This document shows, one piece after another, positions 17,079 through 37,848 of a DNA stretch of 47,302 nucleotides. The stretch spans positions 1-47,302 of the forward strand of contig JABDKP010000182.1 of NCBI GenBank assembly GCA_013002175.1. The letters run 5' to 3'. The position numbers and the translations under genes are program-made. The first letter of the stretch is position 1, and every line of letters starts with the position of its first letter. A model generated the notes under the pieces. It saw only the letters and a list, made by a program, of their open reading frames with translations. It was not told the DNA's origin and searched no databases. Origin of the DNA: Ilumatobacter sp. (lineage in GTDB: Bacteria; Actinomycetota; Acidimicrobiia; Acidimicrobiales; Ilumatobacteraceae).

Positions 17079-17645
17079 TCAGGGGGCGAGCGCGATCGAG
17101 TCGCACTGGGCCAGACCGCGCTCGAGGTCGCGCCGATGCTGGTTGCGCGCCCACTGCAGCCACAGACCGTTCTGGATGACGATCACGTCGGTGGCGCGAT
17201 CGGCCGCCTCCCGCGCCGACAGCCGGGGTCGCGCCTCGCGGATGAGCGTCGAGAGGTTGGCGGCATAGGGGTCGACCATGCTCCGTTCGACGGCGGCGAT
17301 CTCGGCGTCGGTCCGCGCCACCGCCCAGACCGCGATCCACAGCGCGAGGAAGTCGGGGGCGAGGAAGTCGTCGTGGTACGCGCCACGGACGTAGGCCCGG
17401 ACGCGATCGTCGGCGCCGTCGACGCCTGCGAGGGACTCGTTCGTCGTGTCGAGCAGCCGGTTCGTGGCGAGCTGGAACGCGGCCTCGATCATCGAGCGCT
17501 TGTCGTCGAAGTGATAGCTGAGCAGCCCGAGCGACACGTCGGCTTCTCGGGCGACGTTGCGCATGCTCGCCCCGTCGATGCCGTCGCGGGCGATGCACGA
17601 CATCGCTGCGTCGAGGATCTGTTCCTGCGTCTCGGAGAGGGTCAC
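17079..17645 (-). CDS. TetR-family repressor of the ten-gene operon
   Basis: The track ORF starts at 17768, inside the opposite gene's leader. The GTG at 17645 (VTLSETQEQILDAAMSCIARDG) is more plausible and gives 188 residues. The N-terminus is a TetR helix-turn-helix with recognition segment VSLGLLSYHFDDK. The rest is a helical ligand-binding domain resembling BetI-type regulators. It is divergent from the operon starting at 17756, and two matching 16-bp palindromes lie between them. The TetR at 37258 is a paralog with a very similar recognition helix and C-terminus (VIQNGLWLQW versus VIQNGMWLTS). Expected to be a substrate-released repressor. Confidence 0.9.
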   Translation of the reverse strand: MTLSETQEQILDAAMSCIARDGIDGASMRNVAREADVSLGLLSYHFDDKRSMIEAAFQLATNRLLDTTNESLAGVDGADDRVRAYVRGAYHDDFLAPDFLALWIAVWAVARTDAEIAAVERSMVDPYAANLSTLIREARPRLSAREAADRATDVIVIQNGLWLQWARNQHRRDLERGLAQCDSIALAP

Positions 17646-17666
17646 GCAACTCAGTCTGACCGAACA

Positions 17667-17682
17667 CTGGACAATCGTCCAG
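17667..17682. promoter_or_regulatory. TetR operator O1
   Basis: The palindrome CTGGACAATCGTCCAG overlaps the -35 element of the divergent operon. It has the same design as O2 and as the operator at 30446. Confidence 0.7.
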
Positions 17683-17696
17683 TCGGTGCGTACGAT
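17668..17696 (+). promoter_or_regulatory. Promoter of the ten-gene operon
   Basis: TGGACA (17668-17673) and TACGAT (17691-17696) are separated by exactly 17 bp, a good sigma-70/HrdB-type promoter. O1 covers the -35 element, and O2 covers the expected start of transcription near 17703. Confidence 0.65.
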
Positions 17697-17700
17697 GCGA

Positions 17701-17716
17701 CTGGACGAACGTTCAG
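17701..17716. promoter_or_regulatory. TetR operator O2
   Basis: The near-palindrome CTGGACGAACGTTCAG lies 34 bp (centre to centre) from O1 and just downstream of the -10 element. One arm position is unpaired. Confidence 0.65.
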
Positions 17717-17755
17717 CTTCGTCGGTCGGGAAGACGATCGGGGGAAATGGGGCAC

Positions 17756-18628
17756 ATGCCAACGGCATTCGCTGCTGCGGAGATCGACCTGGACGCGCTG
17801 GTCGACCTCGACACGCACCCGATCCACGAGGTCGGCAGCACCGTCCGCTCGGCGCTCGTCGCCGAGGCCCGCGCGCAGATGGGCACGTCGGGCTGCTTCC
17901 GGTTCCCGGGGTTCGTGCGCGCCGAGGCGGTCGAGCGGATGCGCGCCGAGGCCGCCGGACTGCACGACGCGACGTTCTGGTCGCAGATGGATCACAACCC
18001 GTACTTCTCCGAGGACGACGAGTCGTGGCCGGCCGGCCATCCCCGTCGCACGTTCCAGCACCGGCGCAGCGGCTTCATCAACTCCGACATCCTCACCACC
18101 GACTCCGTGCTCCGCCAGTTGTACGACTGCGACGTCCTGCTGCACTTCGTCTGGGAATGCCTCGGCACGCCGCAGCCGATCTACCGCTGGGCAGATCCGC
18201 TCGGTCGCAACCCGTACGGCGTGATGGAGCCGGGCCACGAACTGCCGTGGCACTTCGACGGCAACGAGTTCACCGTCAGCGTCCTCGTCCAGCGCGCCGA
18301 CGCGGGCGGGGTGTTCGAATACGTGCCCAACATCCGACGGCCCGACGCCGAGAACTTCGAGCACGTCGCCCACGTGCTCGCCGGTGGGCGCGACGGCGTG
18401 CGGCAACTCGATCTCGTGCCCGGCGATCTCCAGTTGTTCGCCGGCCGGTTCTCGATGCATCGCGTCACCGAGGTCGAGGGGGCCACGACGCGCTACATCG
18501 GCTTGCCGACGTACGTGCACGACCCGTACCGGATGAATCGCCCATATCACTCGACGTCGATCTACGGCCGGGCGACGCCGCAGCACATCGAACGCGAGCG
18601 GCTGCTCGTCGACGGGTTGGTCGACTGA
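17756..18628 (+). CDS. Fe(II)/2OG oxygenase, HalD/BesD-like fold
   Basis: First gene of the operon. The second ATG (17756) is preferred because GGGGGAAATGGGG lies at ribosome-site distance, giving 290 residues. Iron ligands are H166-F-D168 (LPWHFDGNEFTVSVLVQ) and H235 (RFSMHRVTE), with R246 as likely 2OG contact. This arrangement resembles the HalD/BesD-type family of free amino acid hydroxylases and halogenases. Because the Asp is kept, hydroxylation rather than halogenation is expected. A small amine or amino acid is the probable substrate. Its stop codon overlaps the next start (TGATG). Confidence 0.8.
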   Translation: MPTAFAAAEIDLDALVDLDTHPIHEVGSTVRSALVAEARAQMGTSGCFRFPGFVRAEAVERMRAEAAGLHDATFWSQMDHNPYFSEDDESWPAGHPRRTFQHRRSGFINSDILTTDSVLRQLYDCDVLLHFVWECLGTPQPIYRWADPLGRNPYGVMEPGHELPWHFDGNEFTVSVLVQRADAGGVFEYVPNIRRPDAENFEHVAHVLAGGRDGVRQLDLVPGDLQLFAGRFSMHRVTEVEGATTRYIGLPTYVHDPYRMNRPYHSTSIYGRATPQHIERERLLVDGLVD

Positions 18629-19578
18629 TGATCCGCACGGTCGGCTTCATCGGGCTCGGCAACATGGGTGCCCCGATGGCGAGTCACGTCGTGCGCGCCG
18701 GCTTCACGACCGTCGTCGCCGACCTCGACCCGGCGAAGGTCGCCGCGCTCGTCGCCGACGGGGCCGTCGCCGCCATCGACACCGCGGCTGCCGCGCACGA
18801 TGCGGACGTCGTGCTGACGTCGCTCCCCGGCCCGGCGCAGGTCCGCGCGGTCGGCGAGCAGATCGTCCCGGCGATGCGTCACGGCGCGACGTGGATCGAT
18901 CTCAGCACGAACGACCTCGCCTGCGCGCATCATCTCGCGGACGTGGCCGCCCGGCACGGCATCGACTTGCTCGACGCGCCGGTCACCGGGGGGATCGAAG
19001 GTGCGCGCGCCGGCACGCTCAACGTGCTCGTCGGTGGTGATGTGGACGTGCACCGGCGGTGCCAACCGGTGCTCCGGGCGATCGGCGACCGGTTCGACCT
19101 GATCGGCCCGTACGGCGCCGGCTACACCGCGAAGATCTCGCAGGTGATGCTGTGCTACCTCAACTCGGTGTGCCTCACCGAGGCGCTGCTGCTCGGCGTC
19201 AAGGGCGGCGTCGCCCCGGACGCGATGCTCGACGTCATCCGCAACAGCACCGGGCGCAGCTACGTCGCCGATCGCTACGGGCCCGAGATCCTCGCCGGCA
19301 CCTACGACGCCAGTTTCGACCTCACGCTCGCAGCGAAGGATCTCCGCCTCGCGCTCGAACTCGCCGAGGACGTCGGCGCGACACTCGACTTCACCGCCCG
19401 CGTCAGCGAGCTCTACCGCGACGCCGAGGCGCGCTTCGGCCCGATGGCGCCGCACCTCATCGCGATGCGCGAGATCGAGGAGGCGAACGACCTGGTGCTC
19501 CACGAGCACGAACGCACCACCGCGTACCCCGAACGGCCGGAACCCCAGCGGACCGAACACGAGAGGATGGCCCCATGA
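18628..19578 (+). CDS. NAD(P)-dependent beta-hydroxyacid dehydrogenase (HIBADH family)
   Basis: 316 residues from the ATG at 18628; the upstream part of the 17557 ORF is a shadow of the previous gene. The Rossmann motif GLGNMG (10-14 region), the substrate loop DAPVTGGIEGARAGTL (116-131) and the catalytic Lys169 (GAGYTAK) define the 3-hydroxyisobutyrate/tartronate-semialdehyde reductase family. The usual Asn-Asn after the Lys is replaced (KISQVM). It would oxidise a 3-hydroxy acid or reduce the semialdehyde. The C-terminal tail is unusually long and polar. Confidence 0.9.
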   Translation: MIRTVGFIGLGNMGAPMASHVVRAGFTTVVADLDPAKVAALVADGAVAAIDTAAAAHDADVVLTSLPGPAQVRAVGEQIVPAMRHGATWIDLSTNDLACAHHLADVAARHGIDLLDAPVTGGIEGARAGTLNVLVGGDVDVHRRCQPVLRAIGDRFDLIGPYGAGYTAKISQVMLCYLNSVCLTEALLLGVKGGVAPDAMLDVIRNSTGRSYVADRYGPEILAGTYDASFDLTLAAKDLRLALELAEDVGATLDFTARVSELYRDAEARFGPMAPHLIAMREIEEANDLVLHEHERTTAYPERPEPQRTEHERMAP

Positions 19579-20360
19579 CCGACGAAACCCGCGACCGCGA
19601 GGTCAGCGCCGACGATTTCCGATCGGCCAATGCCGGCAGCTTCACCGGCGACGAGTGGCAGGCGCGCGTCGACCTGGCCGCGATGTATCGGCTCGCCGCC
19701 CACTTCGGCTACGACGACCTGGTCTGGAACCACATCACGATGCGCGTGCCCGGCTCCGATCACGACTTCTTCCTCAACAAGTTCGGTCTGCTCTACAACG
19801 AGGTCACCGCGTCCAACCTGATCAAGGTCGACAGCGACGGCACCGTGCTCGAGGGGCCCGCCGACGTCAACACCGCCGGCTTCGTGATCCACTCCGCGAT
19901 TCACAACGACTTCCCGCAGTGGAAGGTCGTCTTCCACGCCCACGTCCCCGACGCCCTCGCGGTGACGGCGCTCGCCAACGGCTTCGAGCACCTCGTGCAG
20001 GACACCTCGATGCTCTACGGCGAAGTCGGCTACCACGACTGGGAGGGGTTGTCGCTCACGCTGGAGGAGCGCGAGCGTCTCGCCAAGAACATGGACGGCA
20101 ACCGGGCGCTGATCATGCGCAACCACGGCTTCCTCACGGTCGGCGAGACCGCCGGCGAGGCATTCATGGTGATGCACTACCTGATCCGCGGGTGCCGCAC
20201 GTTGCTCAAGGCCTACGGCAGCGGCCTCGACGTCGACCCAGGCCCGACCGACATCTGGGAGCTGTCGAAGCGCCAGTACGACAACTTCCCGCTCGGCAAG
20301 CACGAGTGGCCCGCGCTGTTGCGGCTGCTCGACCAGACCGACCCGAGCTTCCGTCAGTAA
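19575..20360 (+). CDS. Class II aldolase/adducin-family protein
   Basis: 261 residues; its ATG overlaps the preceding stop by ATGA. The zinc-site pattern VVFHAHVPDALAVTAL and MRNHGFLTVGET, plus an N-terminal WNHITMRVPG, identify the class II aldolase fold. Members of this type act on small hydroxy-keto acids, by retro-aldol cleavage or decarboxylation. Pairing with a HIBADH-type dehydrogenase recalls four-carbon acid-sugar catabolism (LtnD/OtnC), but the kinase of that pathway is absent here. Confidence 0.85.
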   Translation: MTDETRDREVSADDFRSANAGSFTGDEWQARVDLAAMYRLAAHFGYDDLVWNHITMRVPGSDHDFFLNKFGLLYNEVTASNLIKVDSDGTVLEGPADVNTAGFVIHSAIHNDFPQWKVVFHAHVPDALAVTALANGFEHLVQDTSMLYGEVGYHDWEGLSLTLEERERLAKNMDGNRALIMRNHGFLTVGETAGEAFMVMHYLIRGCRTLLKAYGSGLDVDPGPTDIWELSKRQYDNFPLGKHEWPALLRLLDQTDPSFRQ

Positions 20361-20374
20361 CGCCCGCCGGGACC

Positions 20375-21460
20375 ATGAAGATCGAGCGCATCGCGACGAC
20401 CCTCGTCGACGTGCCTCTGCGCGCCCCGATCGGCACCGCGATCCACTCGATCCGTTCGGTCGGCTGCGTGCTCGTCGACGTGACGACGGTGGACGGCGCA
20501 ATCGGTCAGTCGTTCGCCTTCACGCTCAACGGCGACCGGTTGCGGGCGCTCGACGAGACGGTCACCGGTCTCGCCCACCTCGCCGTCGGCCGTCCGGTGT
20601 ACGAGACGACGGCGATCTGGGACGCGATCTGGAACGAGATCAACCCGACCGGACACAAGGGCACCACGGTCTCGGCGCTGTCGGCGATCGACGTCGCCTG
20701 CTGGGATGCGTGGGGTCGTACGCTCGGCCAGCCGCTCCATCGCGTGTTCGGGGCGTGCCGCGACTCGGTCGACACCTACGCGAGTTCGGGGCTGTGGCTG
20801 AACGCCTCGATCGACGAGCTCGTCGCGGAGGCCGCCGAGTTCGTTGCGCAGGGGTTCCGGGCGGTGAAGCTGCGGATCGGGTCCGACGATCCGGACGTCG
20901 ATGTGGCACGGGTGCGGGCGGTACGTACCGCAGTGGGTGACGACATCGGCCTGCTCGTCGACGCCAACCAGAAGTTCACGCCGAAGCAGGCGATCCGGCT
21001 CGGCCGTCGGCTGGAGGAGTTCGGCCTGCTGTGGTTCGAGGAACCGGTGTCTGCGGACGACCTCGTCGGACATGCCGACGCTCGCGCTGCGCTCGACACG
21101 CCGATCGCGTCCGGCGAGACCGAGTACACCCGGTTCGGCATGCAGGCGATGCTCGACGCCCGCGCCGCCGACGTACTGATGCCCGACCTCCAGCGGATCG
21201 GCGGCTACACCGAGTTCCGCCGCGCAGCCGCGGCCGCGGCCTCCCGGCACGTGCCGGTGTCGAGCCACTTCTTCACCGAGCACAGCCTCGCCCTCGCCGG
21301 GTCGCTGTCCAACTGCATCTCGGTCGAGCACGTCGACTGGTTCGCGCCGCTGTTCCACGAGCATGCCGAGCTCTGCGACGGACGACTGCTCGTACCCGAC
21401 CGCCCGGGCCACGGCTTCACGTTCGACCCCGCCGCCGTCGACCGGTATCGCGTGCGGTGA
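20375..21460 (+). CDS. Mandelate racemase/muconate lactonizing enzyme family member
   Basis: 361 residues from the ATG at 20375. The barrel shows K165-L-R167, D196-A-N, E222 and E248 as Mg2+ ligands, and the Asp271/His298 dyad, so numbering nearly equals that of mandelate racemase. The KxK motif of mandelate racemase is KxR here, leaving His298 as the more likely base, as in many acid-sugar dehydratases. Betaine or hydroxyproline epimerases of this superfamily are an alternative. It makes or uses an enolate of a carboxylate substrate. The specific substrate is unknown. Confidence 0.88.
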   Translation: MKIERIATTLVDVPLRAPIGTAIHSIRSVGCVLVDVTTVDGAIGQSFAFTLNGDRLRALDETVTGLAHLAVGRPVYETTAIWDAIWNEINPTGHKGTTVSALSAIDVACWDAWGRTLGQPLHRVFGACRDSVDTYASSGLWLNASIDELVAEAAEFVAQGFRAVKLRIGSDDPDVDVARVRAVRTAVGDDIGLLVDANQKFTPKQAIRLGRRLEEFGLLWFEEPVSADDLVGHADARAALDTPIASGETEYTRFGMQAMLDARAADVLMPDLQRIGGYTEFRRAAAAAASRHVPVSSHFFTEHSLALAGSLSNCISVEHVDWFAPLFHEHAELCDGRLLVPDRPGHGFTFDPAAVDRYRVR

Positions 21461-21499
21461 TGCCGGACCTCACCAGCGTGGTCGGCGGCGGGAACGGTC

Positions 21500-22375
21500 A
21501 TGAGTAAGCCCGCGAAGTGGTCGGACCCGGCCCACAAGCTGTTCCCGTACCAGGTCGGCTTCACCGCGCCGCCGATGGATTTCGATGCTGCCCCGAGCGA
21601 CTTCCTGCGGATCTGCCCGCCGACCGTCGGGGTGCACGGCCGGTTGCTCCACGCGCCCGGCTACGCCCACGAGTTGTCGCAACGCGCCGACAACTTCCAC
21701 CTTCTGGACGACGTCGTCCACTGCATGTCGAACGCCGGGGCCGACGTCGTCGGCCAGGTCGGCACGAACTGGGTCCATGCGAACGGAACCGACGTCGACG
21801 ACATTCGCCGCTTCGTTGGCGAGGTCGGCGAGAAGTACGAGACACCGTTCCACATGGCGGGACTGACGCTCGTCGACGCGTGCCAGGCGAACGGCTACGA
21901 GCGCGTCGCGCTGAACTCGGTGTACTTCTGGCCGGACTGGCGCGATGGTGTCGTGCGGTTCCTGCGCAGTGCCGACATCGACGTCGTGTGGTTCGGAAAC
22001 TTCGTCGACCAGGGCTGGTACCCGACCCAGCAGGAGGTCAACGACCTCACCTGGATCTTCCCCGGAGACCTCGCGCTCGCCTCGATGCGCCACGTGCTCG
22101 ACCGGGCGCCGGCCGTCGACGCCATCGTCGTCAACGGGATGTCGAACTACCGCGACTCCTGCGGGCAGCCACAACGCCTCGTCGGCCTCGTCGCCGACAT
22201 CGAAGCCGCGATCGGCACGCCGGTGGTCTCCGCCGACGTGTCGCTGTACTGGGCGATCCTGCGCACGCTCGGCGTCGAGCCGATCGGCCGCCAGGGCTCG
22301 CTGCTGGCGTCGCTCCAGACGCCCGCGGGCCAGCCCGCCACCACCGCACGTACCACGACCGACCATGAGAGGTGA
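21500..22375 (+). CDS. Asp/Glu racemase-fold protein (AMDase/maleate isomerase-like) without catalytic Cys
   Basis: A 291-residue protein resembling arylmalonate decarboxylase and maleate cis-trans isomerase (IGFTAPP start, ADVVGQVGTNW, DAIVVNGMSNYRD). In the catalytic members two Cys lie at the two symmetric loops. Here those loops read GQVGTNWVHANG (85-96) and VNGMSNYRDSCG, with no Cys at the expected positions. It may therefore catalyse a Cys-independent lyase or decarboxylase reaction, or only bind substrate. 39 bp separate it from the enolase-superfamily gene, and the ribosome site is GGGAACGG. Confidence 0.7.
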   Translation: MSKPAKWSDPAHKLFPYQVGFTAPPMDFDAAPSDFLRICPPTVGVHGRLLHAPGYAHELSQRADNFHLLDDVVHCMSNAGADVVGQVGTNWVHANGTDVDDIRRFVGEVGEKYETPFHMAGLTLVDACQANGYERVALNSVYFWPDWRDGVVRFLRSADIDVVWFGNFVDQGWYPTQQEVNDLTWIFPGDLALASMRHVLDRAPAVDAIVVNGMSNYRDSCGQPQRLVGLVADIEAAIGTPVVSADVSLYWAILRTLGVEPIGRQGSLLASLQTPAGQPATTARTTTDHER

Positions 22376-22379
22376 ACCG

Positions 22380-23147
22380 ATGTTCCTGACACTGTGGGCC
22401 ACACCCCGATCGACGTCGACCGCGTTCGAGTGGATGATGCGCCAGCGCGGCGACTTCGACTGCTTCCACGAGCCGTGGAACGAGCTGTACTACTACGGCG
22501 AGGATCGCCGCAGCGACCGCGACCGAAACGTCGAGGCCAAGCCCGGCCACGACTACGCCGCCGTCTGGGCCGACCTCACCGGCCGGGCGAACTCCGGCAA
22601 CGTGTTCGTGAAGGACTTCGCCTACTCGGTCGAGCACGACCTCGACGACGACAAGCTCGACGCGATGACGCACGCGTTCCTGATCCGCGATCCGTTGCGC
22701 GTCGTGCAGGGCCTCGCGAAGCACTGGCCCGACTGCACGTTCGAAGAAGCCGGCTTCGAGTCGCTGCACCGCCTTTTCCAGCGCGTCACCGACCGGCTCG
22801 GACGCGTCCCGCCCGTGATGTACTCGGGCGACCTGCTGGACGACCCGAGCGGTACGACGCAAGCGTTCTGCGCGGCGGTCGGCATCCCGTTCGTGGCCGA
22901 GGCGCTGGCGTGGGAGGCCGGGGACCGCAGCGAGGTGGCGTGGTACGGCGAGGGCACCGGGCCGTGGCACGACAACCTGCGTGCCAGCACCGGCATCAAG
23001 CCGCCGGCCACCGAGTACCCGTCGCTCGACGACAACCCGCGGCTGTTCGAGATCTACGAGCGGTGTGTGCCGCTGTTCGACGACCTGCGGCGGCACGCGT
23101 TCCGCCCGCTTCCGGATCCGGCCGCGTCGCAGCGGCAGGAGGCATGA
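22380..23147 (+). CDS. Sulfotransferase-fold protein
   Basis: The ATG at 22380 follows GAGAGGTGA; the track's longer form would absorb that ribosome site. 255 residues. LWATPRSTSTAFEWMM (5-20) is the 5'-phosphosulfate (PAPS) loop, and HAFLIRDPLRVVQGLAKHW is the 3'-phosphate region with the RDP signature. It may transfer sulfate from PAPS to a hydroxyl group made by another enzyme of the operon. Some proteins of this subgroup are of unknown activity. A sulfotransferase inside a catabolic operon is unusual. Confidence 0.8.
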   Translation: MFLTLWATPRSTSTAFEWMMRQRGDFDCFHEPWNELYYYGEDRRSDRDRNVEAKPGHDYAAVWADLTGRANSGNVFVKDFAYSVEHDLDDDKLDAMTHAFLIRDPLRVVQGLAKHWPDCTFEEAGFESLHRLFQRVTDRLGRVPPVMYSGDLLDDPSGTTQAFCAAVGIPFVAEALAWEAGDRSEVAWYGEGTGPWHDNLRASTGIKPPATEYPSLDDNPRLFEIYERCVPLFDDLRRHAFRPLPDPAASQRQEA

Positions 23148-23148
23148 C

Positions 23149-23919
23149 ATGGAGATCTCGCTCGCCGGCAGGCGTGCGTTCGTGACCGCGGGTGGTGCGG
23201 GGATGGGCAGGGCGACCGTGCTGGCGATGCACCGCCTCGGCGCCGAGGTGTTCACGTGCGATGTCGACCCGACCGGATTGCAGACGCTGCCCGACGGCGT
23301 GTCGTCGTCGGTGTGCGACGTCACGAACTCCGCCGAGCTCGACGCGTTGTTCGATCGGATCCTGCCAGACGGTCTCGACTTCATGATCAACAACGCGGGT
23401 GTCGCCGGGCCGACGAAGCTCGTCGAGGACATCACCGACGACGAGTGGCGCCACACGATGGCAGTCTGCATCGACTCGCACTTCTACTGCGCCCGGCGCG
23501 TCGTGCCCGTGTTCAAACAGCAGCGGCACGGCGCGATCGTCAACCTGATCTCCGGCGCCGGCATCCTCGGATATCCCACGCGTTCGCCCTACGCCGCCGC
23601 GAAGTGGGCGGTCACCGGGTTCACCAAGACCCTCGCGATGGAACTCGGCCCCGACAACATCCGCGTCAACGGCGTGGTGCCGGGCAACGTCAACGGCGAC
23701 CGGATGGAACGGGTGATCACGGCACATGCGGCGACCGAGGGACTCGACGCCGAGGTCGTGCGCCGGATGTACGCGATCGGCACGTCGATGCAGTGCTACG
23801 TCGACCCCGAGGAGATCGCCGACCTGATCATGTTCCTGTGTAGTGACTACGGCCGCCACATCTCGGGGCAGGTGATCGGCGTCGACGGCAACACCGAGAC
23901 GCTCTGGCCGCGGAGCTGA
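23149..23919 (+). CDS. Short-chain dehydrogenase/reductase
   Basis: 256 residues, ATG behind AGGAGG and one base after the previous stop. The cofactor loop is TAGGAGMGRA (with Ala in place of the first Gly), then NNAG, the catalytic Ser in NLISGAGILG and YAAAK. NAD(H) is suggested by the acidic residue at the end of strand two (CDVDP). It would oxidise a secondary alcohol in the pathway. Confidence 0.92.
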   Translation: MEISLAGRRAFVTAGGAGMGRATVLAMHRLGAEVFTCDVDPTGLQTLPDGVSSSVCDVTNSAELDALFDRILPDGLDFMINNAGVAGPTKLVEDITDDEWRHTMAVCIDSHFYCARRVVPVFKQQRHGAIVNLISGAGILGYPTRSPYAAAKWAVTGFTKTLAMELGPDNIRVNGVVPGNVNGDRMERVITAHAATEGLDAEVVRRMYAIGTSMQCYVDPEEIADLIMFLCSDYGRHISGQVIGVDGNTETLWPRS

Positions 23920-23925
23920 ACCGCA

Positions 23926-25188
23926 GTGGGGTCGACGTTGCAGCTCGACGAGCGCGAGCAGCGTTGGCTGTCGGGTGCCGACGGCGAGGCGATGCGACTC
24001 GCGATGCAGATGATGGTGACGGCGGCCGACGTCTCCGACGCCACCGAGTTCGTCGAGATCGAGTTCGCGCACATCAACTCGAGCTTCTACTCGGGTCAGG
24101 TGTCGCTCGACTTCGCCGAGTTCCTGCTCGCCAACGGTGGGTCGTTCGCAGTGCCGACCCACACGAACGCCAGCCTGATCGATTGCTCGACGCCGGAGTT
24201 GCGTGCGGAGCACGATCACCCCGTCGAAGTCGGCGGGGCACGGCGGCTGATGGCGATCTACGCCGAGCTCGGTGCGTCGGCGATGTGGAGCTGCGCGCCG
24301 TACGCGGAACCGACGGGCCGCCCGCGGCAGGGTGCGCATGTCGTCGGTTCGGAATCGAACGCGGTGTCGTTCTTCAACTCGGTGCTGGGTGCGCGGACGA
24401 ACAAGTACGGCGACTTCATCGACGTGTGCGCGGCGATGACCGGCCGCGTGCCGCTCGCCGGCCTCCACACCGATGCCGGGCGCCGCGCATCGCACGTGTT
24501 CGATCTCACGGGCCTGTCGGGCGAGGAACTGGCCGACTCGACACTGCCGCACGTGCTGGGCATCATCCTCGGCCACGAGGCCGGGTCGGCGATACCGGTC
24601 GTCGTGGGCCTCGACACGGCCACGGAGGACGACCTGAAGGCGATCGCGGCAGCCGGCGGCACGTCGGGAGCCGTCGAGATGTTCCACGTCGTCGGGGTCA
24701 CGCCGGAAGCGCGGACCCTCGACGCGGCAACCGCGGGAGTGGTGCCGGCGGGGCGGACGATCGTCGATTCGGCGTTGGTCCGGTCGACGCGAGCCCGGCT
24801 GTCGACATCGACCACGGCGCCCCTGAGTGCGGTGTGCCTGGGGACACCGCACTTCACTGCGAGCGAGTTCGCCGGCCTGCGCGCCGCCCTCGACGGGCGT
24901 CCGGTCGACGGCCGGGTGCAGCTCCTCGTCACGACGAGCCGCGCCGTACTCGCCGAGATCGCTGCACATGGATGGGACGACGAGTTGCGGTCACTCGGTG
25001 TGCAGATCGTCCTCGACACGTGCACCTACTACTCGCCGCGCGCCCGCGGCGTCGACGGGCTCGTGATGACGAACTCGGCGAAGTGGGCGTACTACGCGCC
25101 CGGAATTCTCGGTGTCGACGTCGCATTCGGGTCGCTGCCGGAGTGCGTCGACGCAGCGGTGTCGGGCAAGGTCGGTCGGCGTGACTGA
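23926..25188 (+). CDS. Aconitase X, large (catalytic) subunit
   Basis: 420 residues with a GTG start, seven bases after the SDR stop. The sequence follows the AcnX/DUF521 catalytic domain: PTHTNASLIDCSTPEL, MWSCAPYAEPTGRP, SNAVSFFNSVLGARTNKYGDF and VLDTCTYYSPRARG. Cys87, Cys123 and Cys366 are the likely Fe-S ligands. Bacterial AcnX pairs of this kind are known as cis-3-hydroxy-L-proline dehydratases; archaeal relatives dehydrate mevalonate 5-phosphate. Dehydration of a hydroxylated (amino) acid fits the 2OG oxygenase at the head of the operon. Confidence 0.9.
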   Translation: MGSTLQLDEREQRWLSGADGEAMRLAMQMMVTAADVSDATEFVEIEFAHINSSFYSGQVSLDFAEFLLANGGSFAVPTHTNASLIDCSTPELRAEHDHPVEVGGARRLMAIYAELGASAMWSCAPYAEPTGRPRQGAHVVGSESNAVSFFNSVLGARTNKYGDFIDVCAAMTGRVPLAGLHTDAGRRASHVFDLTGLSGEELADSTLPHVLGIILGHEAGSAIPVVVGLDTATEDDLKAIAAAGGTSGAVEMFHVVGVTPEARTLDAATAGVVPAGRTIVDSALVRSTRARLSTSTTAPLSAVCLGTPHFTASEFAGLRAALDGRPVDGRVQLLVTTSRAVLAEIAAHGWDDELRSLGVQIVLDTCTYYSPRARGVDGLVMTNSAKWAYYAPGILGVDVAFGSLPECVDAAVSGKVGRRD

Positions 25189-25621
25189 GCCCCCCATGCG
25201 CGGTCGGGTGCTGCACGCCGGCGCCGCGTCGGCACCGGCGGCGCGGCTGGACGCTCCGCTCAGCTTCTGGGGCGGGTTCGACCCGGTGACCGGCCGGATC
25301 ATCGACCAGGCCCACCCGCAGGTCGGCGAGTCGCTGACGGGCCGGGTCGTCGTCGTCGGCGGGTCGCGCGGGTCGTCCGGGACGCCGGGCGTCCTCGCAG
25401 AATCGCTGCGCCGCGCGACGGGTCCGGCCGGGCTGATCGTGAACAAGGCGGACGTCAACCTCACGGCCGGTGCACTCGTCGCCGAAGCGCTCTACGAATG
25501 CGTCTGCCCGATCGTGCTCCTCGACGACGCGTCGTTCGCCGACGTCGGGAGTTGGCCGGGCATCGCGATCACGAACGATGGCACCGTCAGCCCGATCGTC
25601 TCCGAGACCGCATCGCCGTGA
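25181..25621 (+). CDS. Aconitase X, small (swivel) subunit
   Basis: 146 residues from the GTG at 25181, overlapping the large subunit stop by 8 bp; an ATG at 25196 is an alternative. VVVVGGSRGSSGTPGVLAESL is the substrate-binding Ser loop of the swivel domain, and GPAGLIVNKADVNLTAGALVAEALY follows. In many organisms the two parts are fused; here they are separate and should form a heterodimer. Confidence 0.9.
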   Translation: MTEPPMRGRVLHAGAASAPAARLDAPLSFWGGFDPVTGRIIDQAHPQVGESLTGRVVVVGGSRGSSGTPGVLAESLRRATGPAGLIVNKADVNLTAGALVAEALYECVCPIVLLDDASFADVGSWPGIAITNDGTVSPIVSETASP

Positions 25622-26802
25622 ACGTCCCCATCGTCCCCGCGCCACCGGTCGACGTCGGCCGGCTCCGCGCACACCGGGTGGGACGCCTGCGGGAGCAGTT
25701 GGCGGAACACGACGTCGATGCGATCGTGTTGACGAACCCGGTCAGCCTGCGATACGCCGCCGACTGGCGTGAGTACGCGCTGTTCCAGGCGCACATCCCG
25801 ACGTACTACCTCGTGATGGACAGCGACGGCCGGCTCACGATGTTCGGCGCCTATGCGACGGACCACCCCACGATCGACGAGTTCCGCGCCGCCCATCATC
25901 CCAACGTCTTCGACGGCGGCCTCGACACCGAGGCGACCGCCGCCGGCTTCGCCGACGACATCGCCGGCGTTGTCGGGACCGGGGCACGCCTCGCCGTCGA
26001 GCGCGTCAACCCGACGTGCGTCGACGCGCTGCGCTGCCACGGCTTCGACGTGGTCGATGCGGAGCCGCTGGTGGAGATCGCCCGCTCGATCAAGTCGACC
26101 GACGAGATCATCTGCATCCGTCACGCGATCGCGGTCGCCGAGGCGGCGATCACGACGATGCGTGAGCGGGCCGTGCCGGGCCTGAGCGAGAACGAGCTGA
26201 TGGCGACGCTGCACCAGGTCAACATCGCCAACGACGGCGACTGGATCGACGGCCGGATGTTGTGCAGCGGCGAGCGCACCAATCCCTGGTACCAGGAAGC
26301 GTCGTCGCGCCGGCTGCGGGCCGGGGAGTTCCTCGCGTTCGACACCGACATGATCGGGCCGTTCGGCTACTGCGCCGACATCTCGCGGACGTGGGTGGTC
26401 GGCGACGGAGAACCGACCGCCGAGCAGCGGGACCGGTACCGGCGGGCCCACGACGAGATCGACCAGTTCGCCGACCTGCTTGCTCCCGGGCGCTCGTTCC
26501 GCGAGCTCTCCGACGCCGCGATGCGCCAACCCGACGAATTCGTCGCCCACCGGTATGCCTGCCTCGCCCACGGCGTCGGCATGAGCGACGAGTGGCCACG
26601 GATCCACCATCGCTGCGATTGGGACGCGCACGGCTACGACGGCGAGGTCCGCGCCGACATGGTGTTGTCGGTCGAGAGCTTCGTCGGCTCGGATCGGGGT
26701 GGCCCTGGCGTGAAGCTGGAGCAGATGTATCTCGTCGGCGAACGCGGCGCCTCGCCGCTGTCGACCTACCCCTACGAACACGCCCTGCTCGCGTCGCCCT
26801 GA
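25618..26802 (+). CDS. DddP-like M24-family lyase (candidate DMSP or related lyase)
   Basis: 394 residues from a GTG overlapping the previous stop (GTGA). It has the pita-bread fold of M24 proteins, but the metal-site motif FDTDMIGPFGYCADISRTW has the DTD pattern I recall from the DMSP lyase DddP, not that of prolidases. All six iron ligands of DddP have counterparts: Asp242, Asp244, Asp254, His318, Glu353 and Glu368. The catalytic base Asp is matched by Asp324 (HGVGMSDEWP). NPWYQE and RYACLAHGVG also match. DddP cleaves DMSP to DMS and acrylate. DddP-like relatives with other substrates exist, and no acrylate genes are nearby, so the substrate is uncertain. Confidence 0.8.
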   Translation: MNVPIVPAPPVDVGRLRAHRVGRLREQLAEHDVDAIVLTNPVSLRYAADWREYALFQAHIPTYYLVMDSDGRLTMFGAYATDHPTIDEFRAAHHPNVFDGGLDTEATAAGFADDIAGVVGTGARLAVERVNPTCVDALRCHGFDVVDAEPLVEIARSIKSTDEIICIRHAIAVAEAAITTMRERAVPGLSENELMATLHQVNIANDGDWIDGRMLCSGERTNPWYQEASSRRLRAGEFLAFDTDMIGPFGYCADISRTWVVGDGEPTAEQRDRYRRAHDEIDQFADLLAPGRSFRELSDAAMRQPDEFVAHRYACLAHGVGMSDEWPRIHHRCDWDAHGYDGEVRADMVLSVESFVGSDRGGPGVKLEQMYLVGERGASPLSTYPYEHALLASP

Positions 26803-26833
26803 GACAAAGTTGTGCCTGGCACAACTTTGTCTC
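26801..26833. terminator. Perfect 33-bp palindrome, bidirectional terminator
   Basis: Arms GAGACAAAGTTGTGCC and GGCACAACTTTGTCTC pair over 16 bp around a central T. The element spans both stop codons of the convergent DddP-like and XRE genes. Compared with 16884-16916, the outermost pairs changed on both sides (CC/GG to GA/TC), keeping the pairing. Confidence 0.85.
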
Positions 26834-30412: not shown

Positions 30413-30435
30413 CACCTCGACGGTAGCAAGCGCGG

Positions 30436-30464
30436 TTGACAGTGGTTGAACGATCGTTCAAGAT
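30436..30464 (+). promoter_or_regulatory. Promoter of the choline sulfatase operon
   Basis: TTGACA (30436-30441) is followed after 17 bp by CAAGAT (30459-30464). The ATG at 30471 would be at or next to the transcription start, implying a leaderless mRNA; no ribosome site is visible. The operator fills the spacer. Confidence 0.6.
30446..30461. promoter_or_regulatory. Perfect 16-bp TetR operator O3
   Basis: TTGAACGATCGTTCAA is fully palindromic and lies between -35 and -10. It shares the pattern yTGrACnAwCGTyCAr with O1 and O2. The likely binder is the TetR at 37258 and possibly its paralog at 17079. Confidence 0.75.
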
Positions 30465-30470
30465 TCGGAC

Positions 30471-31994
30471 ATGCGCAACATTCTGCTGGTGATGGCCGAC
30501 CAGCTCGCGCCGCACTTCACCGGCACGTACGGGCACCCGATCGTGCAGACACCGCACCTCGACGCGCTCGCCGAACGCGGCGCACGATTCGATGCCGCGT
30601 ACTGCCACTCGCCACTCTGCGCGCCATCGCGGTTCACGATGCTCGCCGGCCGGTCGGTGTCGGCGATCGGCGCGTGGGACAACGCCAGCGAGTTCCCCGC
30701 AGCGACGCCGACGATCGCCCACCATCTCGCTCGATGTGGCTACCGCACCGTGCTGACGGGGAAGATGCACTTCGTCGGGCCCGACCAACTCCACGGCTTC
30801 GAGGAGCGGCTGACGACCGACATCTACCCGGCCGACTTTGCGTGGACGCCGAACTGGGACCGTTCCGGCGAGCGGATCGGCAAGTGGTACCACAACATGG
30901 ACGTGGTCCGGGAGGCCGGTCAGGCGGTCGCCACGTACCAGATCGACTTCGACGATGAGGTCGGCCGAACGGCGCGACGCAAGCTCTACGACATCGCCCG
31001 AGACGCCGACGAGCGACCCTTCTTCCTGTGCGCGTCGTTCATCCACCCCCACGATCCGTACGTCGCGCGGCCCGAGTGGTGGGATCGGTACGACAACGCC
31101 GCCATCGACCTGCCCGAGACGTACGACCTCACCACGGCCGACCCGCACACCCGACGAATCCGCGCCGGGATCGAGGCCGACACGGTCGAGACCACCGACG
31201 ATCAGGTACGCAACGCGCGCCGCGCCTACTACGCGAACACGAGCTACTTCGACAACTGGATCGGCGACCTCGTGGCGACGCTCGACGAACTCGGCAAGCT
31301 CGACGACACGGTCGTGATCGTCACGAGCGACCACGGCGACATGCTCGGCGACCGGGGTGCCTGGTTCAAGATGTCGTTCCACGAGCGCTCCGCCCGCGTC
31401 CCACTCGTGATCGCCGGGCCCGATGTCGCACGGTCGACGGTGCCGAACGTCTGCTCCCACCTCGACCTGCTGCCGACACTGCTCGACATCGCCACCGAAG
31501 GCGGCCCGTGGCCGGAACTCGGCACCGAGCTCGACGGTCGCAGCCTCTGGCCCGCCGCGACCGGCGGAACCGACGACGTCGACGAGACGACCGGCGAGTA
31601 CACCGCCGAGATGACGTCGCACCCGATGTTCATGATCCGGCGTGGCGACCACAAGTACATCCACTGCGACACCGACCCGCCGTTGCTCTACGACGTGGCC
31701 GCCGATCCGCTCGAACGGGTGAACCTCGCCGACGACCCCGCGCACGCCGAACTGGCCGCACGTTTCGCCGCCGAGGTGTCGTGCCGCTGGGACAGTGACG
31801 CGATCCGCGAGCGGGTGCTCACGTCGCAGCACGGGCGCCGCTCGATCCACGAGGCGATGGCCACGTCGTCGCGCCTCGTGTCGTGGGATCACCTCCCGAG
31901 CAACGACGTCGCCGACCAGTACGTCCGCAACCACCAGGACTGGGCCGAGACCGGGCCCCGGCTGCGCTACCCCCGATGGGAAGAACCGCAATGA
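30471..31994 (+). CDS. betC: Choline-sulfatase
   Basis: 507 residues. The sulfatase signature C50-A-P-S-R (CxPSR) carries the Cys converted to formylglycine, and metal ligands lie in MADQ and TSDHGDMLGDRG. The C-terminal extension SQHGRRSIHEAMATSSRLVSWDHLPSNDVADQYVRNHQD is typical of BetC and separates it from other sulfatases. It hydrolyses choline-O-sulfate to choline and sulfate in the cytoplasm (no signal peptide). First gene of a seven-gene operon; its stop overlaps the next ATG. Confidence 0.9.
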   Translation: MRNILLVMADQLAPHFTGTYGHPIVQTPHLDALAERGARFDAAYCHSPLCAPSRFTMLAGRSVSAIGAWDNASEFPAATPTIAHHLARCGYRTVLTGKMHFVGPDQLHGFEERLTTDIYPADFAWTPNWDRSGERIGKWYHNMDVVREAGQAVATYQIDFDDEVGRTARRKLYDIARDADERPFFLCASFIHPHDPYVARPEWWDRYDNAAIDLPETYDLTTADPHTRRIRAGIEADTVETTDDQVRNARRAYYANTSYFDNWIGDLVATLDELGKLDDTVVIVTSDHGDMLGDRGAWFKMSFHERSARVPLVIAGPDVARSTVPNVCSHLDLLPTLLDIATEGGPWPELGTELDGRSLWPAATGGTDDVDETTGEYTAEMTSHPMFMIRRGDHKYIHCDTDPPLLYDVAADPLERVNLADDPAHAELAARFAAEVSCRWDSDAIRERVLTSQHGRRSIHEAMATSSRLVSWDHLPSNDVADQYVRNHQDWAETGPRLRYPRWEEPQ

Positions 31995-33154
31995 CCACGC
32001 CCGCCGACATCGCGACGGGCTACCGCGCCGATCCGGCGGCGTCGATGTCGCTGCACGCCGACGCCTACACCCGTCCGGAGTGGTTCGCACTCGAACAGCG
32101 CGCGGTGTTCGGTCGCACCTGGCAATGGCTGTGCCACACAGAGAAGCTGCGCGCTCCCGGCAGCTACGTCGCCGGCGAGGTGGCCGGCATGCCGATCGTC
32201 GCCGTGCGCGACCGCGACGATCAGCTGCGGGCGTTCTACAACGTGTGCCAGCACCGGGCGCACCAACTGCTCGACGGCGAAGGGACGGCGGGGGCGATCG
32301 TGTGCCCGTACCACGGATGGACGTACGACCTCGGTGGGCAGCTCACCGTTGCGCGCAAGACGCAGCACCTCGTCGACTTCGTCCCGGCGGAGATCTGCCT
32401 CGACCAGATCGGCGTCGAGGAGTTCGGTGGCTTCGTCTTCGTCAACCTCGACGTCGACGCGGTGCCGCTCGCCGAGCAGGCCGGTGGCCTCGCCGCCGAG
32501 ATCGCACACTGGGCGCCGGACATCGAACGGCTGACGTTCGCCAAGCGGCTCACCTATGACATCGCATCGAACTGGAAGAACGTCGTCGACAACTTCCTCG
32601 AGTGCTACCACTGCCACATCGCCCACAAGGACTTCGTGTCGCTGGTCGACATGGACACCTACACGGTCACGACGCACGGCATCTACTCCAGTCACATGGC
32701 CGAGGCCGGCCGCTCGGCGAACAGCGCGTACGACGTCAGCGACGCGACCGTTCGCGACCACGCGGTCTGGTGGCTGTGGCCGAACACGTGCCTCATGCGG
32801 TACCCGGGCCGCGGCAACATGATCGTGCTGCAGATCATTCCGGTCGGCCACGACCGCACGCTCGAGACGTACGACTTCTACCTCGAGACGCCGACGCCCG
32901 ACGCGGCCGAGCAGGAGTCGATGCGCTACCTCGACGAGGTGCTCCAGGTCGAGGACATCGCGCTCGTCGAGAGCGTGCAGCGCGGCATGTCGACACCGGC
33001 GTTCACCCAGGGCCGGATCGTCACCGACACGTCCGGGATGATCGGGTCGGGTCTGTCCGAGCACGCGCTCCACCACTTCCACGGCCTCGTCCTCGACGCC
33101 TACACCACACCGGTGACCGTTCACCCGTCGGGGCGGCAGGTGACGTCCGGATGA
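31991..33154 (+). CDS. Rieske non-heme iron oxygenase (CntA/GbcA-type)
   Basis: 387 residues. The Rieske [2Fe-2S] ligands are C86-x-H88 and C105-x2-H108 (CQHRAH, CPYHGW). Mononuclear iron ligands are H207 and H212 (ECYHCHIAH). Glu204 occupies the position of the usual bridging Asp, as I recall for carnitine monooxygenase CntA. Likely substrates are quaternary ammonium compounds (glycine betaine, carnitine, stachydrine-type). Products would be an N-demethylated amine plus formaldehyde, or trimethylamine by C-N cleavage. No reductase gene (GbcB/CntB) lies in the window. Confidence 0.88.
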   Translation: MTTPADIATGYRADPAASMSLHADAYTRPEWFALEQRAVFGRTWQWLCHTEKLRAPGSYVAGEVAGMPIVAVRDRDDQLRAFYNVCQHRAHQLLDGEGTAGAIVCPYHGWTYDLGGQLTVARKTQHLVDFVPAEICLDQIGVEEFGGFVFVNLDVDAVPLAEQAGGLAAEIAHWAPDIERLTFAKRLTYDIASNWKNVVDNFLECYHCHIAHKDFVSLVDMDTYTVTTHGIYSSHMAEAGRSANSAYDVSDATVRDHAVWWLWPNTCLMRYPGRGNMIVLQIIPVGHDRTLETYDFYLETPTPDAAEQESMRYLDEVLQVEDIALVESVQRGMSTPAFTQGRIVTDTSGMIGSGLSEHALHHFHGLVLDAYTTPVTVHPSGRQVTSG

Positions 33155-33936
33155 CCGGCCGGGGGATGCTGGACGGCCGGATCGCGCTCGTCACCGGAGG
33201 GTGCGGTGGGGCCGGGCGGGCGATCTGCGACCGGTTCGACGCCGAAGGTGCCCACGTGTACGCCGGCGACCTGTCCGCGGCGGGCAGCCTCGGCGACGCC
33301 AGCGGGCACGGCACGTTCGTCCGACTCGACGTCACGTCCGAAGCGGACGTGCAGGCAGCGATCGCTCTGATCGAAGAGAAGCACGGCCGACTCGACGTGC
33401 TCGTCAACGCGGCGGGCATCGAGCTGGAGCTGACGGTCGAGGAGACGACCCTCGACCAGTGGAACCGGATCATGGCGATCAACGTCACCGGCACGTTCCT
33501 CGCGTCGAAGTACGCACTGCCGCTGCTGCGCCGGTCCGCGTCCGACGGAGGGAACCCGTCGATCATCAACTTCGGTTCGTACGACGGCTTCATCGCCGAC
33601 CCGAAGCTCGCCGCATACTGCGCGACGAAGGGCGCGGTCCACGCGCTGACGAAGGCGATGGCCTGCGACCACGGCCCGGAGGGGATCCGGGTCAACGCGA
33701 TCTGCCCCGGCTACATCGACACGCCGATGCTCGCCCAGTTCGTGCCCGACGGCGTCGACCCCGAGGCTGCTCGCGCCGAGGCGAGCGCCGTTCACCCGCT
33801 GCGCACGATCGGCACGCCGACCGACATGGCGAACCTCGTCAACTGGTTGGCATCCGACGAGGCGCGCTACGCGACCGGTCAGCTCTGGGTGCTCGACGGC
33901 GGCATCTCCGCACAAGTCCAACAGATGAGGTTCTGA
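33151..33936 (+). CDS. Short-chain dehydrogenase/reductase
   Basis: 261 residues; ATG overlaps the previous stop. TGGCGGAGRAI cofactor loop, AGDLS after strand two (NAD preference), NAAG, the active-site Ser in INFGSYDGF and YCATK. It would oxidise a hydroxylated intermediate (for example a hydroxy acid) of the operon's pathway. No closer assignment is possible from sequence alone. Confidence 0.92.
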   Translation: MTGRGMLDGRIALVTGGCGGAGRAICDRFDAEGAHVYAGDLSAAGSLGDASGHGTFVRLDVTSEADVQAAIALIEEKHGRLDVLVNAAGIELELTVEETTLDQWNRIMAINVTGTFLASKYALPLLRRSASDGGNPSIINFGSYDGFIADPKLAAYCATKGAVHALTKAMACDHGPEGIRVNAICPGYIDTPMLAQFVPDGVDPEAARAEASAVHPLRTIGTPTDMANLVNWLASDEARYATGQLWVLDGGISAQVQQMRF

Positions 33937-34868
33937 TGTCGACCAACCCGGTGATCATCACGTGCGCGCCGACCGGCGGCATCCACACCCCGACGATGTC
34001 ATCGACGCTGCCGATCACGCCCGACCAGATCGCCGAGGCGTCGATCGGCGCAGCCGAGGCGGGCGCGTCGATCATCCACCTCCACGCTCGCGACCCCGAG
34101 ACGGGCAAACCCGACCCGCGGCCCGAGCTGTTCCAGGAGTTCCTGCCGAAAATCAAGGGGGCGTGCGATGCGGTGATCAACGTGTCGACCGGCGGCGGCC
34201 TCGGGATGAGCCGTGAGGAGCGGCTGCTCGCGGCGACGAGCACGTCACCCGAGATGGCGTCGCTCAACGTCGGTTCGCTCAATTTCGGGCTGTTCCCGAT
34301 GCTCGACAAGTACCGCGACTGGCAGCACGACTGGGAACCCGAGTTCCTCGAGATGACGCGCGACTTCATCTTCCGCAACACGTTCGCCGACCTCGAGTAC
34401 ATCGTGAAGGAACTCGGCCAGAACCACGGCACGCGCTTCGAGTTCGAGTGCTACGACCTCGGTCACCTCTACAACCTGTCGTGGCTGATCGACCAGGGCT
34501 GGATCGAGCCGCCGTTCTTCGTACAGATGGTCTTCGGCGTGCTCGGCGGCGTCGGCGCCGACCTCGACAACCTGATGCACATGCACACGATCGCCGACAA
34601 GCTGTTCGGCAACTCGTACGAGTGGTCGGTGCTCGCCGCCGGGCGCCATCAGATGTCGTTCGCCACCCAGGCCGCGATGCTCGGCGGCAACCTGCGCGTC
34701 GGGATGGAGGACAGCCTGTACATCGGGCCAGGCCAGCTGACGCCGTCGAACGCCGCACAGGTCGAGAAGATCCGCACGATCGTCGAGGCCCTCGGCCTGC
34801 GGGTCGCAACGCCCGCGCAGGCGCGTGAGCGCCTCGGGCTGAAAGGAGCGGACCATGTCAACTTCTGA
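33936..34868 (+). CDS. Beta-keto acid cleavage enzyme (BKACE family)
   Basis: 310 residues. The Zn-binding His48 and His50 lie in SIIHLHARDPETGKPDPR, and ITCAPTGGIHTPTMSSTLPITPDQIAEA opens the barrel. Enzymes of this family condense a beta-keto acid with acetyl-CoA, giving acetoacetate and a CoA ester; one known substrate is dehydrocarnitine. With the carnitine-dehydrogenase-like gene downstream, 3-dehydrocarnitine cleavage to betainyl-CoA is the most natural reading. The 3' end overlaps the aldehyde dehydrogenase by 14 bp. Confidence 0.92.
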   Translation: MSTNPVIITCAPTGGIHTPTMSSTLPITPDQIAEASIGAAEAGASIIHLHARDPETGKPDPRPELFQEFLPKIKGACDAVINVSTGGGLGMSREERLLAATSTSPEMASLNVGSLNFGLFPMLDKYRDWQHDWEPEFLEMTRDFIFRNTFADLEYIVKELGQNHGTRFEFECYDLGHLYNLSWLIDQGWIEPPFFVQMVFGVLGGVGADLDNLMHMHTIADKLFGNSYEWSVLAAGRHQMSFATQAAMLGGNLRVGMEDSLYIGPGQLTPSNAAQVEKIRTIVEALGLRVATPAQARERLGLKGADHVNF

Positions 34869-36306: not shown

Positions 36307-36307
36307 C

Positions 36308-37261: not shown

Positions 37262-37848
37262 CCGTCTTCGAACACCCACCTGGGCGCACCGAACTGAGCG
37301 ACAAGGAGAACCACATCCTCGACGCCGTGCTGACCGTGCTCGCCCGAGGCGGCGTCGCCGGTGTGAGCATGCGGGCCGTCGCGAAAGAGGCGAACGTCGC
37401 GCTCGGCTTGATCAATTACTACTTCGACGACAAGACCTCGCTGATCGCGGCCGCGCTGCGGCGGCTCGGCGACGAGGACGCGCGGATCGTCGAGCCGGAC
37501 ACACGGCTCGATCCGGAGGCTCGTCTGCGGTACGCGTTGCGGCGGGTGCGCGACGCCGAGTTCCTCGCGACCGACTACCTCGGCCTGCGGCTCCAGCTCT
37601 GGTCGCTGGCGAGTGTCGACCCGGTGTTCGCGGAGATCAACAACGCGGGCCAGACGCGGTACCGCGACGGGCTGGCCGCGCTGATCGCAGCCGCACGCCC
37701 GCACCTCAGCGACACAGAGGTGCAGCGTCGAGCGGCGGACGTGCTCGTCATCCAGAACGGCATGTGGCTGACATCGATCCTGATCCTCGACGAGGAGTCG
37801 ATCGAACGGGCTGTCGAACGTTGCGAGGACGTCGCCCTGGCGAGCTGA
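37258..37848 (+). CDS. TetR-family regulator (BetI-like)
   Basis: 196 residues from a GTG overlapping the dehydrogenase stop. The helix-turn-helix ends VALGLINYYFDDKTSLI, close to BetI and to the paralog at 17079. It is the last gene of the operon that has the perfect palindrome O3 in its promoter, so autoregulation by substrate-released repression is likely. Confidence 0.9.
   Translation: MTVFEHPPGRTELSDKENHILDAVLTVLARGGVAGVSMRAVAKEANVALGLINYYFDDKTSLIAAALRRLGDEDARIVEPDTRLDPEARLRYALRRVRDAEFLATDYLGLRLQLWSLASVDPVFAEINNAGQTRYRDGLAALIAAARPHLSDTEVQRRAADVLVIQNGMWLTSILILDEESIERAVERCEDVALAS

Follow-up and report, generated by a model that had tools for sequence, protein, structure and literature searches.

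Methylated amines and betaines carry a major share of the nitrogen and carbon exchanged in the sea, and for several of them no breakdown route has been described. In the degradation of gamma-butyrobetaine and carnitine, a 2-oxoglutarate (2OG)-dependent oxygenase is followed by a beta-hydroxyacid dehydrogenase and then by cleavage of the beta-keto acid. Ectoine catabolism employs EutA, which resembles arylmalonate decarboxylase (AMDase), and EutD of the M24 family. In CurM, Ols and retinol dehydratase, sulfonation turns a hydroxyl into a leaving group; in CurM and Ols, these are beta-hydroxyls prepared for elimination. Here, we describe a ten-gene operon (g1 to g10, 17747-26802; Table 1) in a 47,302-nucleotide stretch of Ilumatobacter sp. 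DNA (assembly GCA_013002175.1, contig JABDKP010000182.1; hereafter, the window). We lean, if only slightly, toward reading it as an operon under TetR control that serves the catabolism of an N-methylated onium (betaine-type) carboxylic acid and belongs to a wider betaine regulon. Its substrate is most likely a trimethylammonium acid with a straight chain, of the gamma-butyrobetaine type. We infer the reactions, the order of the steps and the substrate from computed evidence, namely protein families and motifs, conserved residues, synteny of the modules, conservation of the operator and membership in its regulon. Like gamma-butyrobetaine degradation, the pathway would open with a 2OG oxygenase, a beta-hydroxyacid dehydrogenase and beta-keto acid cleavage. 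It would differ in having an entry enzyme of the HalD family and further parts foreign to the known pathway: an enzyme of the class II aldolase family and modules with AcnX, a sulfotransferase, an AMDase-like and a DddP-like protein.

The strongest evidence that the operon would handle an N-methylated onium compound is its operator regulon. A TetR-family gene is divergently oriented to the operon; starting it at an in-frame ATG farther upstream would lengthen it to 17768, through the operators. The 101-bp gap between this gene and g1 holds two inverted repeats, which represent the conserved palindromic operator ACTGRACGANCGTYCAGT. The initial annotation of the window, made from the letters alone, had proposed twin operators here, and these are real: operator 1, ACTGGACAATCGTCCAGT, and operator 2, CTGGACGAACGTTCAG, are the only sites of the pattern CTGRACNNNNGTYCAG in the 3.33-Mb source genome, with 0.02 matches per window expected by chance. 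Upstream of homologues of g1 (HALD genes), CTGRACNNNNGTYCAG occurs without mismatch in 23 of the 29 Acidimicrobiia loci examined, and TetR homologues are divergent from HALD in 16 of 36.

The operator was further used as a probe for unlinked sites in relatives. In one locus (L148), it precedes an operon of a gamma-butyrobetaine dioxygenase (BBOX)-like, a BKACE and a carnitine-dehydrogenase-like gene. In another (L151), it precedes MR/MLE and BBOX-like genes followed by AcnX-swivel-AMDase-sulfotransferase-SDR, and the BBOX-type oxygenase occupies the place that HALD has elsewhere. Other sites stand before a DmdA-like gene (L149; 388 bits, cut-off 410), a DMT permease (L150) and, in the near-identical form CTGGACGATCGTTCAG, SDR-AcnX-swivel (L172, genome G271). 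At L147, the operator precedes a DddP-like gene, then DMT permease, sarcosine-oxidase-like and type III glutamine-synthetase-like genes, with two further genes that by eye encode N-methylglutamate synthase subunits. Among 395 genomes of the class, 11 carry the strict pattern, as against one for a reversed-pattern control. Six of the sites in these genomes (L158, L160, L161, L163, L165, L166) precede a dimethylglycine dehydrogenase (DMGDH)-like gene with EtfBA, some of them divergent from Fhs/MTHFR/FolD-like genes, and one (L168) precedes a HALD operon. Three more (L159, L162, L164) precede a TetR gene adjoining a class II aldolase-like gene, joined by ProVWX in L159 and L164; this TetR gene, similar to the one in the window, has its own copy of the operator. 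The Fhs, FolD and EtfBA labels are our reading of the sequences, and ProVWX and MTHFR denote similarity to clusters named by eye. At four sites (L167, L169, L170, L171), no neighbour is obviously a betaine gene, and these matches could be due to chance. In relatives, the operon's operator is shared with known betaine genes, and a sister operator stands before a companion operon in the window. The onium theme of the initial annotation had leaned on the proximity of that next operon. The regulon supports it far more directly; independent support also comes from genes for betaine transport, demethylation and carnitine-type enzymes within homologous clusters or next to them.

By both sequence and fold, g1 is a member of the HalD/BesD family of amino-acid halogenases (PF23169, 39.9 bits against a cut-off of 26). 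Its profile matches are 7u6h, 7u6i and 6nie, including HalD, HalB and BesD, and the top Foldseek folds for its AlphaFold (AF2) model (pLDDT 91) are HalD, HalA, HalB, BesD and 7jsd, a solved hydroxylase homologous to BesD. The fold, the iron-site layout and a distant sequence similarity (about 15-19% identity) are shared with these solved members; the difference lies at the halide-binding position, where the family's halogenases have Gly (HxG) and g1, in the profile alignment, has Asp. The iron site, His-Phe-Asp...His (WHFD...H), is invariant in 34 homologues, and HxD also appears in 82 of the 82 g1 homologues listed. Since g1 carries HxD rather than HxG, hydroxylation is expected, and the enzyme should hydroxylate rather than halogenate. 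In contrast to HalD/BesD, its gene context is catabolic.

When g1 was used as a query against 84,980 species genomes, 79 loci were retrieved, which by record title and our own sorting comprise 36 of Acidimicrobiia type, 21 of SAR11 type and 22 others, mostly Proteobacteria. Homologues of g1 are carried by, among others, Marinobacterium jannaschii DSM 6295 and Pseudomonas taeanensis MS-3. Outside the source genome, the exact ten-gene order was found only in a near relative (L004; gene 1 is 94% identical), whereas parts of the operon turn up in new arrangements in Acidimicrobiia, in SAR11 and in further marine Proteobacteria. A lack of conserved gene order was among the refuting conditions of the initial annotation; it applies to the exact order, with its one relative, but not to the modules. 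The recombining modules are HALD-HIBADH-aldolase(-MR/MLE), AMDase-sulfotransferase-SDR(-AcnX-swivel) and M24, and chance does not account for their coming together repeatedly in different phyla. Because the gene caller yields antisense shadows in some GC-rich loci (L091, L156, L157, L168), the numbers of neighbours given are minimum values. In SAR11, where the operon core is found in single-cell genomes, the arrangement is either HALD-HIBADH-aldolase-FrhB-like or HALD(-HALD)-aldolase-carnitineDH-like-FrhB-like. A GbcA-like Rieske gene and an M24 gene often precede the second of these. ProVWX and a BBOX-like gene adjoin SAR11 operons with HALD, aldolase and carnitine-dehydrogenase-like genes, and one locus (L061) has BKACE-HALD-aldolase-carnitineDH-like. 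In Gammaproteobacteria and Alphaproteobacteria, parts of the core are accompanied by a LysR gene and by genes for a GhrA-like reductase, for an LhpJ-like dehydratase and for transporters of the ProVWX or BCCT kind.

This reshuffling suggests that two or three alternative branches act on a common hydroxylated intermediate. The carnitine-dehydrogenase-like gene that replaces g2 in part of SAR11, together with the BKACE operon of L061, points to a straight-chain, carnitine-like intermediate. Genes of gamma-butyrobetaine and carnitine degradation belong to the same operator regulon in relatives and are co-operonic in L061. A biosynthetic cluster for a hydroxylated or sulfated metabolite is most improbable: the HalD family and CurM-like sulfotransferases are indeed known from biosynthesis, but a Pfam search of the operon recognised no carrier protein, ligase or exporter, the uptake systems, demethylases and one-carbon genes alongside are typical of catabolism, and the genes are present in streamlined SAR11 genomes.

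Two observations concern HALD genes themselves. The source genome holds a second, diverged HIBADH-HALD pair (L098, G000:C139:1757-3549; the HALD is 42% identical), which shows that these two enzymes are paired more than once. In six SAR11 loci (L050, L055, L062, L067, L069, L074), tandem HALD paralogues (WHFDSCEF and WHFDGNEF) sit downstream of GbcA-like Rieske and DddP-like M24 genes, which suggests two successive hydroxylations.

The residues of the two AcnX subunits, g8 and g9, were compared with the substrate complex of AtAcnX (PMC8184944). Those binding the carboxylate and the hydroxyl are retained, and both ring-nitrogen contacts are changed (Thr72 to Gly, Asp203 to Asn). A fully supported clade is set apart by the loss of Asp203, which is replaced by Asn or, in one member, by Gly; the 28 further AcnX examined from the class all keep it. 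Cys at position 447 also marks the g8 clade, yet is seen in a few other AcnX, and the Cys510 position is occupied by Tyr in every two-subunit AcnX examined from the class. Because Thr72 and Asp203 bind the amine of 3-hydroxyproline, their loss fits a substrate without an N-H donor.

Such a substrate might instead be cyclic, an appreciable though considerably less probable alternative. For proline betaine or hydroxyproline betaine, g1 would hydroxylate ring C3, AcnX (elsewhere an LhpJ-like enzyme) would dehydrate the quaternary 3-hydroxyproline analogue, the ring would open and the remaining enzymes would break down the open-chain dimethylamino acid. The alternation of AcnX and LhpJ-like MR/MLE proteins, two unrelated families of cis-3-hydroxyproline dehydratases, in HALD clusters argues for a cyclic, proline-betaine-like intermediate; the same swap is reported for hydroxyproline clusters (PMC5144071). 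The operon resembles L-hydroxyproline clusters (AcnX LhpI or MR/MLE LhpJ) in this alternative use of dehydratases and differs from them in that its AcnX lacks the amine-binding residues and no other hydroxyproline genes were recognised, a pyrroline-carboxylate reductase included. A quaternary ring nitrogen would be expected to leave the ring-stacking Trp35 in place and both amine contacts lost, which is the pattern seen here; Trp35, however, is retained in all AcnX of the class examined and is weak evidence. A cyclic substrate also leaves unexplained the carnitine-dehydrogenase-like and BKACE genes of SAR11 operons and the BBOX-like gene in HALD's place. Given a betaine substrate, a straight chain seems distinctly more probable than a ring.

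For the DMSP (dimethylsulfoniopropionate) lyase DddP, six metal ligands and two proposed catalytic residues, Tyr366 and Asp377, have been described (PMC4108388). All of these are present in g10, and they are kept in 19 of 19 g10-like proteins examined and not in two ordinary M24 proteins, making a DddP-type beta-elimination likely. At 294.6 bits, g10 falls below the DddP model's cut-off of 600 and, unlike DddP, is set among betaine and amine genes. These data bear on a sulfonium pathway, in which g1 would hydroxylate DMSP or a relative and g10 or g4 would free dimethyl sulfide. The DddP residues and the DmdA-like member of the regulon speak for it, but g10 scores half of the DddP cut-off and the regulon is mostly nitrogen-side (BBOX-like, carnitine-dehydrogenase-like, BKACE, DMGDH-like, sarcosine-oxidase-like), and we consider it unlikely. 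Catabolism of ectoine or hydroxyectoine was rejected, g10 scoring 39 bits to ectoine hydrolase against 295 to DddP.

The AF2 model of the sulfotransferase g6 (pLDDT 90.5) best matches the folds of the CurM and Ols sulfotransferases, with retinol dehydratase lower among the matches. As in those systems, a decarboxylase-fold partner, g5, stays adjacent; in contrast to them, g6 is free-standing and without an acyl carrier, its TM-scores are low and its reaction is a prediction. The g5 protein has a decarboxylase/racemase fold and a relative in the Protein Data Bank (PDB), 4ix1, itself of unknown function, and differs from arylmalonate decarboxylase: an alignment of eight homologues contains no conserved cysteine, the catalytic one included, and the score is 28.2 bits against a cut-off of 225. 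The g5-g6 pair is also found without HALD, beside Rieske, DMGDH-like, LhpJ-like and M24 genes. In other Acidimicrobiia, AMDase-like and sulfotransferase genes form operons of their own (L093, L094, L095, L096, L097), with a DMGDH-like demethylase and LhpJ-like enzymes in most and FrhB-like, Rieske, M24 and aminotransferase genes in several; these possibly represent a separate undescribed betaine pathway.

The remaining enzymes are of broader families. For g2, superfamily membership is clear, and the score to TIGR01692 is 202.7 bits, below the cut-off of 291.6 for a 3-hydroxyisobutyrate dehydrogenase (HIBADH) equivalog. The aldolase-family g3 scores 274.7 against a cut-off of 207 for the PRK07044 subfamily and retains the metal-binding His motifs HAH and NHG; its PDB relatives are 3ocr, NovR and TqaM. 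In a hand alignment, the position of the catalytic Glu73 of FucA, beside the metal-binding histidines, reads Gly in g3, and this, with the resemblance to NovR and TqaM beside 3ocr, makes decarboxylation or oxidative cleavage as likely as a retro-aldol reaction. The best relatives of g4 are 2pp0 and 2og9, and both its catalytic His and its metal ligands (Asp/Glu/Glu) are conserved. A pathway for acid sugars or hydroxy acids that involves no onium group would suit g2, g3, g4 and the GhrA-like partner, whose families have sugar acids as their usual substrates; it is nonetheless improbable, as the regulon and neighbouring genes are betaine genes and the DddP-type lyase, Rieske and DMGDH-like genes would be left without explanation. 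Pfam places the ten proteins in HalD, HIBADH-type, class II aldolase, MR/MLE, AMDase, Sulfotransfer_5, SDR, AcnX, AcnX swivel and M24, in line with the families of the initial annotation; among the matches listed, none of the ten proteins reaches an NCBIfam equivalog cut-off, and g3 alone passes a broad subfamily cut-off. All ten genes lie on the + strand, as first described, and are tightly packed, but their starts and stops do not mostly overlap: four of the nine junctions do so, and the other five have gaps of 1-39 bp.

For a straight-chain betaine, g1 would hydroxylate the carbon beta to the carboxylate, the role of gamma-butyrobetaine dioxygenase in carnitine metabolism; elsewhere, the BBOX-like enzyme in HALD's stead would set this hydroxyl. 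In one branch, g2 would oxidise the beta-hydroxy betaine to a beta-keto acid, which g3 would cleave or decarboxylate, with g4 acting at the alpha-proton. In another, the hydroxyl would be removed through dehydration by g8/g9, through sulfonation by g6 and then elimination with g5 in the manner of CurM and Ols, or both, and g7 would adjust the oxidation state. The methylated amine may then be released by g10 through DddP-type beta-elimination, and the products would feed glycine-betaine, dimethylglycine and methylamine metabolism. The path first proposed, in which an acid is hydroxylated, dehydrated and cleaved, survives in part: early hydroxylation fits the HxD motif and the 7jsd fold, and AcnX dehydration and DddP-type cleavage fit the residues.

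Several findings weigh against this proposal. A betaine-binding OpuAC protein was not found in the source genome (assembly 89% complete), where carriers of other types are possible. The same genome has a separate BBOX-like gene (L156, on a 5.4-kb contig), so plain gamma-butyrobetaine is probably not the substrate. Furthermore, the TM-scores of the g6 fold matches are low (0.43-0.51), the operon core (MR/MLE, HIBADH, aldolase) is also typical of acid-sugar catabolism and the exact gene order is nearly unique. A betaine-lipid head group (hydroxymethyl-trimethyl-beta-alanine) would be chemically attractive given the HIBADH, AMDase-like and DddP-like enzymes, though no observation points to it in particular.

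Downstream, the companion operon was said to handle choline sulfate and carnitine, which its families bear out; the choline-sulfatase scores 659.5 against a curated cut-off of 433. Its last gene encodes a TetR paralogue of the g1-side regulator, and the sister operator in front of the operon is a perfect palindrome, TTGAACGATCGTTCAA. The same operator region is common to an isochorismatase-like hydrolase gene (family assigned by eye; 29729-30415, - strand) divergent from the choline-sulfatase gene, a possible member of the betaine regulon.

Past g10 lies a perfect palindrome, AAAGTTGTGCCNGGCACAACTTT (26804-26830), at which the operon had been thought to end. The palindrome is real, but a role as operon-specific terminator is ruled out by its 58 copies in the source genome. 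With its absence from ten congeneric genomes, this makes it a dispersed element. A second window copy lies at 16887-16913, and both are between convergent genes. Copies also occur within about 60 bp of both other HALD paralogues of the genome, near 1688 on G000:C139 and near 5699 and 6472 on G000:C86, where they bracket the HALD gene.

Table 1. Coordinates in the window of the operon, its regulatory sites and the companion operon.
Feature	Position	Strand	Basis
TetR-family regulator, divergent from operon	17079..17645	-	gene call, GTG start at 17645
Operator 1	17666..17683		conserved pattern
Operator 2	17701..17716		conserved pattern
g1, HalD/BesD-family Fe(II)/2OG oxygenase with HxD, predicted hydroxylase	17747..18628	+	PF23169, motif, AF2 fold
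g2, HIBADH-type beta-hydroxyacid dehydrogenase	18628..19578	+	PF03446, PF14833
g3, class II aldolase/adducin-family enzyme	19575..20360	+	PF00596, PRK07044
g4, enolase-superfamily (MR/MLE), talarate/galactarate dehydratase-like	20375..21460	+	PF13378, PF02746
g5, AMDase/maleate-isomerase-fold protein without conserved cysteine	21500..22375	+	PF17645
g6, PAPS-type sulfotransferase (Sulfotransfer_5)	22380..23147	+	PF19798
g7, SDR dehydrogenase/reductase	23149..23919	+	PF13561
g8, AcnX large subunit, clade with Asp203 to Asn/Gly	23926..25188	+	PF04412 (367 bits), residue table, tree
g9, AcnX swivel subunit, Thr72 to Gly	25181..25621	+	PF01989, alignment to 7cnp
g10, DddP-like M24-fold protein, predicted lyase	25618..26802	+	DddP model (294.6 bits), residues
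Sister operator, before companion operon	30446..30461		sole site of its pattern in genome
Companion operon: choline-sulfatase, GbcA-like Rieske, SDR, BKACE, aldehyde dehydrogenase, carnitine-dehydrogenase-like, TetR paralogue	30471..37848	+	families, gene calls

A search of open-access literature (titles and abstracts) found no description of this gene set. The protein families and TetR-controlled betaine catabolism are known; as far as that search showed, the novelty lies in the entry enzyme and in how the enzymes are combined. It is conceivable, though doubtful, that an amino-acid-chlorinating fold serves as entry hydroxylase of an undescribed onium-osmolyte catabolism in SAR11, marine Acidimicrobiia and Oceanospirillales, with sulfonation-assisted elimination of the new hydroxyl in one branch and DddP-type release of the methylated amine. 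Sulfonation-assisted elimination, so far known from natural-product biosynthesis and retinol dehydratase, would then also occur in catabolism. The operon and its operator provide a testable enzyme set for one marine methylated amine or betaine, and ACTGRACGANCGTYCAGT offers a handle to the betaine regulon of marine Acidimicrobiia. If the proposal is correct, the HalD/BesD family would gain a catabolic role, and sulfonation possibly a catabolic use.

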